A stretch of DNA of 64,000 bases from Candidatus Limosilactobacillus merdigallinarum (lineage in GTDB: Bacteria > Bacillota > Bacilli > Lactobacillales > Lactobacillaceae). A model generated the notes under the pieces. It had not been told where the DNA came from. It searched no databases and saw nothing but the letters and a program-made list of their open reading frames with translations. The position numbers were made by a program, and so were the translations under genes. The stretch spans positions 1 to 64,000 of the forward strand of contig DXFH01000001.1 of the NCBI GenBank assembly GCA_019114515.1. The letters are read 5' to 3'. Shown here in pieces: positions 54,318 through 59,024 of the stretch. Position 1 is the first letter of the stretch. Each line of letters starts with the position of its first letter.

Positions 54318-57300
54318 TTAGTCTTGCTTAGCTTCATCCGGTTTTGCGTCTGTCATCTGCTGTGCTTCATCCTTTTGGGCCTGTTCTTCACGGCCATGCT
54401 GAGCAGAACGACGAACGTTAATCACATCTTCGTCCATGTTCTTTAACTGAACTTCGTGATGGTTATTGTCCAGAACCTTCATGTCCAAACCTAATGACTG
54501 CAATTCCTTAACCAATACACGGAATGATTCAGGAACACCTGGCTTAGGAATCCGGTCACCATTAATGATGGCATCGTAAGTATTAACACGACCAACAACA
54601 TCGTCTGACTTGTAAGTCAAGATTTCTTGCAGCGTGTATGCGGCACCATAAGCTTCCAGTGCCCAAACTTCCATTTCACCGAAACGTTGGCCACCAAATT
54701 GTGCCTTACCACCAAGTGGCTGTTGCGTAACCAGTGAGTATGGTCCAATTGAACGTGCGTGGATCTTATCGTCAACCATGTGGGCCAGCTTCAGGTAGTG
54801 CATGACACCAACGGCGATCCGTTTTTCAAATGGTTCACCGGTACGACCATCATACAGAATGGTCTTACCATCTGACGGTAAACCAGCTTCCTTAACAGCG
54901 TCCCAAACATCCTTATCAGTAGCACCATCAAAGACTGGCGTTGCGATGTGGATACCTAATTGACGAGCAGCCATACCTAAGTGCAATTCAATAACTTGCC
55001 CAATGTTCATACGACTTGGCACACCCATTGGACTCAGCATAATGTCGATTGGCGTACCATCAGGCATGTATGGCATATCTTCTTCAGGGATAACAATGGA
55101 AACCGTACCTTTGTTACCGTGACGGCCAGACATCTTGTCACCAACTTGGATCTTCCGCTTTTGAGCGATGTAGACCCGGACCATCTTGTTAACACCAGGA
55201 GATAATTCGTCACCATTGTCACGGGTGAAGACCTTAACGTCCTGGATAATACCACCACCACCGTGGGGAACACGCAGTGAGGTATCACGAACTTCACGTG
55301 ACTTTTCACCGAAGATAGCGTGCAGCAGACGTTCTTCAGCAGACAGTTCAGTCACACCCTTTGGCGTAACCTTACCAACTAAGATGTCACCATCGTGAAC
55401 TTCGGCACCAACACGGACAACACCATCTTCATCCAGATTCTTCAGTGCATCCGCACCAACGTTAGGAATTTCACGAGTCATTTCTTCTGGGCCCAGCTTA
55501 GTTTCACGGGCTTCAGATTCGTATGATTCAATGTGGATAGAAGTGTAAACGTCATCCTTAACCAGACGTTCAGAAATAGCGATGGCATCTTCGAAGTTGT
55601 AACCCTGCCAAGTCATGAAGGCGATCAGTGGGTTTTGACCCAGCGCCAATTCACCCTTTTCCATGGATGGACCATCAGCTAAGACGTCATCAGCATCAAC
55701 ATGTTCGCCGACCTTGACGATTGGACGCTGGTTGTAGTTCTTACCACCGTTACTACGACGGAACTTCATCAGCTTGTAAGTGTCTAAGGTGTCGTCTTCT
55801 TCACGAACACGGATTTCACGAGCATCAACGTATTCAACAGTACCTGAATTCTTAGCAATTAAAGCAACCCCAGAGTCGTGGGCAGCCTTGTATTCGATGC
55901 CAGTCCCAATCAAAGGAGCATGTGGGTTAATCAACGGAACGGCTTGCCGTTGCATGTTAGCACCCATCAGCGCACGGTTGGAGTCATCGTTTTCCAGGAA
56001 CGGAATACATGCAGACGCAACGGAAACTACTTGCTTTGGTGAAACGTCCATGTAGTCAACGTTGTCAGCAGAAGTTTCAATGTAGTCATCCTTATCACGG
56101 CACATGATTTCATCTTCAGCGAAGGAGCCATCATCGTTCAGCGGCGTGTTAGCTTGGGCAATGATGTAGTTATCTTCTTCGTCGGCAGTCAGGTAATCGA
56201 TCTTATCGGTAACCTTGTGGGTCTGCCAAGAAACACGACGGTATGGTGTTTCAATGAAACCGTACTTGTTAACGCGGGCATAAGAAGCCAGTGAGTTAAT
56301 CAGACCAATGTTAGGACCTTCAGGAGTTTCGATTGGGCACATACGACCATAGTGGGTGTAATGCACGTCACGAACTTCATAACCAGCACGGTCACGAGTC
56401 AAACCACCAGGACCCAGGGCGGACAGACGACGCTTGTGCGTTAATTCACCCAGTGGGTTGGTTTGGTCCATGAATTGTGACAGTTGTGAAGAACCGAAGA
56501 ATTCCTTAATAGAAGCAACTACTGGCCGAATGTTGATCAATTGTTGTGGGGTAACCGTGTTGATATCCTGAATGGACATCCGTTCACGAACAACCCGTTC
56601 CATCCGGGCCAGACCAATCCGGAACTGGTTCTGCAGCAATTCACCGACAGAACGAATACGACGGTTGCCTAAGTGGTCGATGTCGTCAGTAGAACCAATG
56701 CCTTCTTGTAAGTTGAAGAAGTAGTTTACTGATGCAATGATGTCGGCTGGCTGAATGTGCTTTAATTCCAACGGAATGTGGCCGTTAGCAACGATTGGCA
56801 CAACCCGGTCAGGATCATTCTTGGAGTAAACCAAGATCTTTTGCAGCTTAACCGGCTTAGTAACAACGGCTTCATCAGATGGCGTGTAGGTAATCATCTT
56901 GAAGTCATCACGTGCCAGTGCTGGTTCCAGCTTCTTCAGTACTTCCTTGGTAACAATATCGCCCTTGTTGGCCAAGATTTCACCAGTGTCTGGGTCAGCC
57001 AGCGTTTCTGCTAAGGTCTGACCAAGCAGGCGGTACTTCATCATGAGCTTCTTGTTAGTCTTGTAACGACCAACTGGAGCCATGTCGTAACGACGTGGAT
57101 CAAAGAAACGAGCGGTCAGCAAACTACGAGCAGAATCAGCCGTCTTTGGTTCACCTGGACGCAGACGTTCGTAAATGTCCTTCAAGGATTCTTCAACTCG
57201 TGAATCTTCAGCATTCTTGTGAACATCCTTATCCAAGGTTGCAGCTAATGATTCAGAGTTGCCACCCAGCATGTCAATGATTTCATCATCAGAGCCGAAG

Positions 57301-57938
57301 CCTAATGCCCGCACTAATTCGGTCATTGGCAGCTTACGGGTCCGGTCAATCCGTACATATGAAATGCCCTTAGCGTCCGTTTCGTATTCCAGCCATGCAC
57401 CACGGTTAGGAATAAAGTTGGCGCTGAAGTTAGTCCGACCGTTCTTGTCGGTTTCCTTGTCATAGTAAATACCTGGGGAACGAACCAATTGTGAAACAAT
57501 AACCCGTTCGGCCCCGTTGATAATAAAGGTCCCTTGATCAGTCATCAATGGGAAGTCGCCAAAGAAGACGTCCTGTGACTTAATTTCACCAGTTTCGTGG
57601 TTAGTCAGACGCAGGGTAACGTGCAGTGGTGCAGAGTAGTTAGCATCATGTTCACGTGCTTCGTCTTCCGTATACTTGGGTTCCAGGAGCTGGTAATCAA
57701 CGAACTCGAGTGACAGCTTGCCCTGGAAGTCATCAATCGGCATGATGTCGTTAAACATCTCACGCAAACCTTTATCCATGAACCAATTGTAAGAATTAGT
57801 TTGGATTTCAATCAGGTTTGGCAGGTCGAGAACTTCCTTAATCCGGGAGTAGCTACGGCGGGTACGGTGCTTACCATATTTAACTAAATGTCCAGCCAAA
57901 GTATTCACCTCTCTAATTTGTTGGGTGGGTCCAATCAA
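54318..57938 (-). CDS. rpoB: DNA-directed RNA polymerase subunit beta
   Basis: 1206 aa; [34 protein letters not shown]. Confidence 0.99.
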
Positions 57939-57983: not shown

Positions 57984-58117
57984 AAAAAAAATCCAAAAGC
58001 AGCTGGCAACTGCCTTTGGTTTTTTATAAAGAAGCCGGTGGACAAGAGATCACCGACCTCACTGGACTCACAAATTACATACGTTAACAATATAGGACAA
58101 TCAGCATGCAAAGTCAA
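57984..58117 (-). ncRNA. rpoB promoter plus leader RNA with intrinsic terminator, candidate Lacto-rpoB motif
   Basis: Minus TTGACT-17-TATATT (58112-58117 / 58089-58094); leader stem CGGTG...CACCG, then CCAAAGGCAG ttgccag CTGCTTTTGG ATTTTTTTT (57984-58019) upstream of rpoB ATG 57938. Confidence 0.65.
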
Positions 58118-58229
58118 TCGCTATGCACGCTAGCAAAGCCCTTACATTGATCTTTTTTTGCTTTTTTCAGTAACCGCCCTCGACATTTTGAATTACGAAC
58201 GGCCTTAGTCCGAGAATAATGCAAACAAA

Positions 58230-58379
58230 GGGGCTGTGACTTAAGTCTGTTATATAGATCAAAAGTTAACAGCGCGGTACACAAATGGCCTCAAGTGTTC
58301 GGATTTTTTCGAACGCTTGAGACATATTTGTGCTCGCGGGCGTGACTACGAAGTCATAAATGACTTCTGTCACGTTCCC
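58230..58379. mobile_element. MITE-like 150-bp structured insertion, flanked by AAACAAA direct repeats
   Basis: Imperfect TIRs GGGGCTGTGACTTAAGTC / GACTTCTGTCACGTTCCC (13/18); internal long hairpin CACAAAT..CTCAAG..GTTCG/CGAAC..CTTGAG..ATTTGTG; AAACAAA at 58223-58229 and 58380-58386. Confidence 0.7.
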
Positions 58380-58386
58380 AAACAAA

Positions 58387-58416
58387 AACCACCAGCAGTT
58401 ATTTTGCTGGTGGTTA
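58387..58416 (-). terminator. Terminator downstream of TetR-family gene
   Basis: Minus AACCACCAGCA aaataa CTGCTGGTGGTTTTTGTTT. Confidence 0.85.
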
Positions 58417-58430
58417 CTAAATTTAAACTG

Positions 58431-59024
58431 TTATTTATGCTGCATAACACCGTTTAAGAATACATCCAAGATAATCTTGCCACGCTGTTCGTTACTGATA
58501 CTCTTACCACCAAGCTGCTGTAATGAACCAAATAATGGTGTCAAGTCAGCGATGAACAATTCAGCAGCTTCTTTAGGCAGGAGGTCCGGACGCAAATGCG
58601 CTTCCGGCAGCTTAAAGAATTCAGAAACTGGCTCAATGTAGTCCATCATAAAAATAATTTCCAGTTTACGACGACCACTAGGACTCAAGAGCGAGGCAGT
58701 GGACTGCCAATTATTGTAAACGTTGTTCGGGTGATTCTTAGTAAAGACTTCTGTGATTTCCCACAAACGGTCTTTTGCCGATAAGTTATCCCGGCGCATC
58801 ACCTGGTTAATTTGCTGACGGACCTTGCTGCAGTGTGCAGACAAGACATCCAAGTACAATACTTCCTTATCACTAAAATGATGATACAAAGCCGGCTGGG
58901 TAATGCCAATTTCCTTAGCAATGTCACGGGTAGAGGTTAATGCGTACCCCTTTTTTAAGAATAATTTAGTGGCGGTCTCCATGATCGCTGTTCTGGTTTT
59001 TGCTAGTTGTTCTGTTCTCTTCAT
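58431..59024 (-). CDS. TetR/AcrR family transcriptional regulator
   Basis: 197 aa; IMETATKLFLKKGYALTSTRDIAKEIGITQPALYHHFSDKEVLYLDVL HTH. Confidence 0.93.
   Translation of the reverse strand: MKRTEQLAKTRTAIMETATKLFLKKGYALTSTRDIAKEIGITQPALYHHFSDKEVLYLDVLSAHCSKVRQQINQVMRRDNLSAKDRLWEITEVFTKNHPNNVYNNWQSTASLLSPSGRRKLEIIFMMDYIEPVSEFFKLPEAHLRPDLLPKEAAELFIADLTPLFGSLQQLGGKSISNEQRGKIILDVFLNGVMQHK

Follow-up and report, generated by a model that had tools for sequence, protein, structure and literature searches.

The window (the whole stretch of DNA analysed here, 64,000 nucleotides from Candidatus Limosilactobacillus merdigallinarum) contains a short element of 150 bp between a TetR-family regulator gene and rpoB (positions 58230..58379, + strand). 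Its right-hand neighbour is the regulator gene (58431..59024, − strand; PF00440, E 1.3e-16), whose intrinsic terminator is intact in the sequence (58387..58415, −) and has an equivalent hairpin in genome G026. The left-hand neighbour, downstream, is rpoB (54318..57938, −), identified by its ORF and by synteny in relatives. A candidate rpoB promoter, TTGACT-17-TATATT, is seen at 58089..58117 (−) and is visible in G026 too. The element runs from a left terminus, GGGGCTGTGACTTAAGTC (58230..58247, +), to a right terminus, GACTTCTGTCACGTTCCC (58362..58379, +), which is an imperfect inverse of the left one and has the family form GACTTCTGTCACGCTCCC. Each end is abutted by AAACAAA. The left copy (58223-58229, +) is evident in the sequence and atypical for the element family; the right copy (58380-58386, +) lies in the T-tract that the TetR terminator has on the − strand. 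A sequence-only reading of the window had given the same sequence, coordinates, ends and AAACAAA copies for 58222-58386. It also took that T-tract as the target, which is correct for this copy.

The same reading described a folded interior with two hairpins. The fold is real (z = −6.9 on the + strand vs shuffles, far above chance), but it comprises three hairpins: a weak hairpin 1 (58233..58273, +), seen in the fold but without a conserved helix in the alignment; hairpin 2, with a long stem predicted by folding (58274..58337, +) and many compensatory changes between species; and hairpin 3 (58338..58379, +), a G+C-rich stem that extends to the right end and emerges from both folding and covariation. 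The 3′ arm, GACTTCTGTCACG(C/T)TCCC, has alternative partners; pairing with the inner arm GGGGGCGTGA...ACGAAGTC gives hairpin 3, and pairing with the left terminus gives an outer stem. In most copies a T-rich flank follows hairpin 3 and yields a terminator-like signal; the window copy continues with AAACAAA, without the typical T-rich flank. A search of Rfam at gathering and permissive thresholds gave nothing relevant, and, as had been claimed, the element has no coding potential of note. Short, multicopy, devoid of coding capacity and bounded by terminal inverted repeats (imperfect, 13/18 in the window copy by the earlier count), it is a MITE.

The window's genome contains 31 matches to this MITE, partial ones included, four of them full-length or nearly so at identities of at least 93%; the family consensus is about 152 bp. 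Most sampled Limosilactobacillus species carry many copies each. The multiple copies that a BLASTN search had been proposed to reveal were thus found both in the same genome and across the genus, which confirms the 150-bp sequence as a real mobile-element family with about 30 copies in its own genome. Outside Limosilactobacillus, the species sampled gave no convincing match. When 85,462 species were scanned with a 43-base degenerate pattern for the right arm, 53 loci matched, and the titles of all of them name either Limosilactobacillus or uncultured Lactobacillus MAGs. Among plasmid records the sole match is from L. fermentum, with none outside Limosilactobacillus; in a phage collection, the window copy gave a weak 36-base match and copy L117 gave none. 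Longer copies of 173-176 bp (L034, L086, L161, L171 and L046) possibly represent a sub-family; in L034 the extra 22 bp sits between hairpins 2 and 3. Searches of open-access literature by title and abstract turned up no paper on a Limosilactobacillus MITE of such a kind and no obvious IS1182 MITE, and as far as this coverage shows the family is new for Limosilactobacillus.

A candidate partner came from a scan of the genus Limosilactobacillus for PF13751. Genomes G006 and G003 (loci L177/L178) contain a 1792-bp insertion sequence (IS) whose transposase is intact and whose ends are identical, GGGGCTGTGACATAAGTC...GACTTATGTCACAGCCCC. These match the MITE family consensus at 17/18 positions on the left and 14/18 on the right; the left terminus of the window copy matches both IS ends at 17/18. 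The transposase (560 aa; domains DUF772 and DDE_Tnp_1) scores 309 bits against NF033551 (NCBIfam, cut-off 270), and hence belongs to the IS1182 family. A close relative, 88-89% identical in protein, occurs eleven times in genome G066. Full length and flanks were determined for nine of these copies; as in the MITE, left flanks are A-rich and right flanks mostly T-rich. The L. reuteri plasmid NZ_CP041677 also carries the IS, at 85.6% identity. The window's own assembly, which is 92% complete, gave no IS1182 transposase match at the thresholds used, so the partner is deduced from relatives. Only the terminal ~25 bp are common to MITE and IS, so the MITE is not just this IS with its interior deleted. 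Judged by its termini, the IS1182-family IS is likely the mobilising partner of the MITE. The earlier description as a non-autonomous MITE-like element stands, and the matching termini now give it a likely family. Right-end-only matches, examined for an autonomous element, were degenerate or insertion-carrying copies, and the adjoining open frames suggest none. At L312 (G075:C1, 709-2625), the right-end segment of an IS1182-family IS is present twice, the second time beyond the end of the IS, so that two right termini lie 138 bp apart.

The target can be read from relatives in which a site is empty. The joined flanks of MITE copies were looked for in relatives, and nine sites had a usable empty counterpart, namely L109, L108, L121, L104, L118, L123, L119, L117 and L009. 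At all nine, a strong terminator-like hairpin (z −7 to −11 vs shuffles) fills the relative's gap where the MITE sits. This gap measures 27-42 nt at eight of the nine sites; at L009, whose left flank has diverged, a hairpin core of about 27 nt lies within a 50-nt gap. In one example, AAAAGAAT and ATTCATTTACT enclose the MITE, while the empty relative reads AAAAGAATGGGGCTAGAAAGTTAATTCCTAGCCCTATTCTTTTACT. At L119 and L117 the MITE is present in G011 and the site is empty in G028. At L123 two relatives, G028 and G018, share the same hairpin, which suggests that it was there before the MITE. The IS behaves likewise at L303, where it occupies the place of a terminator hairpin found in G004 (L314). 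Other loci were less legible: the empty loci for L002, L003, L018 and L111, and that for L117 in G018, are diverged or rearranged; the flanks of L177 (the IS in G006) are rearranged in G031 and offer no empty site, nor does L308; and L307 gave a long gap, not a clean one, in which a terminator hairpin lies. The stem-loop of the empty site is gone where the element is present, at nine MITE sites and one IS site, as in IS1272-type elements. As a rule, then, a terminator stem-loop gives way to the MITE, and the outer A-tract and T-tract are kept. By their form and their position at gene 3′ ends, the replaced hairpins would be intrinsic terminators. The L121 copy (G011:C117:20405-20574) lies with a second, unrelated dispersed repeat, GTGAGCTAGCGTTCTAGGCAACATAGTCAAGAACTGCTCGCC..., which is very abundant and recurs dozens of times in G011 and G028.

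Placement relative to genes follows the same pattern. Among 126 MITE copies, neighbouring genes (called mechanically from ORFs, with some orthologous copies still included) are convergent at 69, tandem at 56 and divergent at one. The median distance to gene 3′ ends is 18 nt, and the placement differs from that of 54 other intergenic gaps at the same loci (Fisher p = 8e-8 and 3e-11). In tandem contexts the right end faces the upstream gene in 38/56 cases (p = 0.01, uncorrected). Another stable hairpin occurs within 45 nt of only 12/86 copies.

Structural covariation was assessed in a MAFFT alignment of 27 copies, with the structure derived from the same alignment. Changes on both sides of a pair occur in 18/33 pairs (84 cells), as compared with 2-5 pairs in slid controls; for hairpin 2, they affect 10/14 pairs of helix 1. 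This count is a more robust measure than the percentage paired, which is favoured by construction, and kinship of the sequences inflates the shuffle control. The alignment also contains highly conserved unpaired stretches. Selection on the hairpin as DNA could also have produced the covariation, and so could correction between the arms of palindromes. On the plus strand of copy L117 hairpin 3 leads into a U-tract, and on the minus strand the termini pair in the outer stem, with a U-tract at its end. Folds of this form suggest that an inserted MITE may terminate transcription.

The reading that accounts best for these data, with a probability of about 0.85, is that the MITE is mobilised by an IS1182-family transposase and swaps in for terminator hairpins, with the window copy as an exception. 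The transposase, acting in trans, would recognise the MITE termini and aim for DNA that forms hairpins, which in practice means intrinsic terminators at the 3′ ends of genes. It would excise most of the stem-loop there and install the MITE between the outer A-tract and T-tract, which stay behind; we infer both the mobilisation and the strand chemistry of this exchange. With the retained T-tracts, the MITE's own stable hairpins could then stop transcription, hairpin 3 on one strand and the stem between the termini on the opposite one. Such a terminator-for-terminator swap would cost the host little, allowing the MITE to persist. The window copy would have landed beside the TetR terminator rather than replacing it. 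This copy, with direct AAACAAA flanks and an intact adjoining terminator, counts against the reading, as does the lack of an IS1182 transposase match in the window's assembly. Mobilisation of the IS200/IS605 or REP/RAYT type was dropped as a candidate after the IS1182 partner and stem-loop replacement emerged.

The sequence-only reading had instead proposed a conventional DDE-type MITE, in which a staggered cut of 7-8 bp duplicates AAACAAA. Direct target duplication is usual but not universal around MITEs, and is not expected for the IS1272 type. When the junction flanks of 84 independent copies were compared with shuffles, direct repeats showed no excess over expectation at any k from 4 to 12. 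The window copy is alone in having a perfect 7-bp repeat; none of the other 83 has one. Inverted complementarity of the flanks does exceed expectation, with 22 perfect 4-mers vs 9.45 expected and a maximum of 16 in 1000 shuffles. The usual pattern is an A-rich left flank and a T-rich right flank, now and then forming a long perfect palindrome (AAAACCTTTGAG / CTCAAAGGTTTT at L165). Together with the stem-loop replacement at empty sites, these counts dispose of a perfect target-site duplication as the hallmark of the family, and staggered-cut duplication was rejected as its rule. All 28 relatives in which both genes were matched in synteny are empty of the MITE between TetR and rpoB, as had been anticipated. 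For the window copy the proposal can draw on that copy's own repeat and on the best alignment with G026, the nearest relative, which has a single AAACAAA (GCAATAAAAAATCACCAGC vs GC[AAACAAA]AACCACCAGC), although the sequence to the left has diverged, which makes this modest evidence. The left flank of L030 also ends in AAACAAA, and a match beside an A-rich tract may arise by chance, at about the 1% level. DDE-type duplication is accordingly improbable.

The window copy is atypical in that it stands at the foot of the intact TetR terminator without replacing it, and G026 has no second hairpin at the MITE's place. An explanation confined to this copy is that the hairpin-targeting transposase gave an alternative product here: strand transfer would have taken place at the terminator's foot, duplicating the foot tract and sparing the stem-loop. 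The position of the copy, exactly at that foot, agrees with it, and L017 in the same genome has the same layout: A-tracts flank it, and the hairpin to its right is intact. The published IS1272 model draws joining products with duplications, but these comprise the whole stem-loop or the loop and never the foot tract (PMC5678879), and only two such copies are at hand; the chance of this explanation is put at a little under even. A further alternative, a conserved family of regulatory or small RNA genes that is dispersed but not mobile, would suit the strong covariation and the conserved unpaired stretches. It is very improbable given the absence of an Rfam match, the variation of positions between species, termini that match an IS, and the occupation of sites of unrelated hairpins.

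Replacement of hairpins by mobile elements is known from staphylococci. IS1272 and TnSha1, of the IS1182 family, target inverted repeats, many of them transcription terminators, including some confirmed by RNA-seq, and remove the stem-loop wholly or in part with no target duplication (PMC4923244, PMC5678879). The MITE resembles them in its IS1182-family partner, in inverted-repeat replacement and in its terminator-like targets. It differs in that IS1272 is a full IS and TnSha1 a transposon with fabI, whereas the MITE is 150 bp long and gene-less, has conserved internal hairpins and a different terminal sequence, and occurs in another genus. EFAR of Enterococcus faecalis reportedly consist, according to a 2007 abstract, mostly of 170-bp miniature elements with two stem-loops, and their empty sites are said to be stem-loops of 24-37 bp that are largely deleted on insertion. 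Relative to EFAR, the present family may add the IS1182 link, the identity of the targets as terminators and the covariation. In kind, the MITE belongs with IS1272-type movement and probably also with EFAR. RUP and NEMIS have TA-type duplications. Both, like YPAL, are short hairpin-forming elements of intergenic DNA that have terminal inverted repeats and are moved in trans; the source that describes them (PMC3733652) also lists EFAR as an enterococcal MITE. The termini and partners of RUP, NEMIS, YPAL and other bacterial MITEs differ from those of the present family, which is an ordinary kind of element with an uncommon and well-documented target habit.

For this Limosilactobacillus family a likely partner IS is now available, and pairs of species give before-and-after views of a terminator exchanged in place for a mobile element. 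Such a swap suggests a route by which parasitic DNA may spread with little harm, by replacing host stop signals. The pairs allow tests of how transposable elements reach harmless sites, through hairpin structure and not sequence, and of whether they provide new terminators. A broader reading, with even odds, is that the MITE is a genus-wide portable two-way terminator, which exchanges itself for host intrinsic terminators and assumes their function with their T-tracts still in place, while selection for termination maintains its hairpins. If so, a fraction of Limosilactobacillus terminators would be domesticated transposons.

At the locus itself, the suggestion that the MITE could alter rpoB expression loses most of its force. 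A large effect is unlikely with the TetR terminator intact and a candidate rpoB promoter between MITE and gene; as that promoter lies downstream of the MITE, the MITE can at most add insulation from TetR read-through. Between the promoter region and the MITE, about 50 bp (58149-58222) are absent from G026. Just upstream of rpoB, at 57993-58019 (−), a terminator-like hairpin, CCAAAGGCAGTTGCCAGCTGCTTTTGG then ATTTTTTTT, matches no Rfam family; it is conserved in relatives and may possibly be an rpoB leader attenuator.
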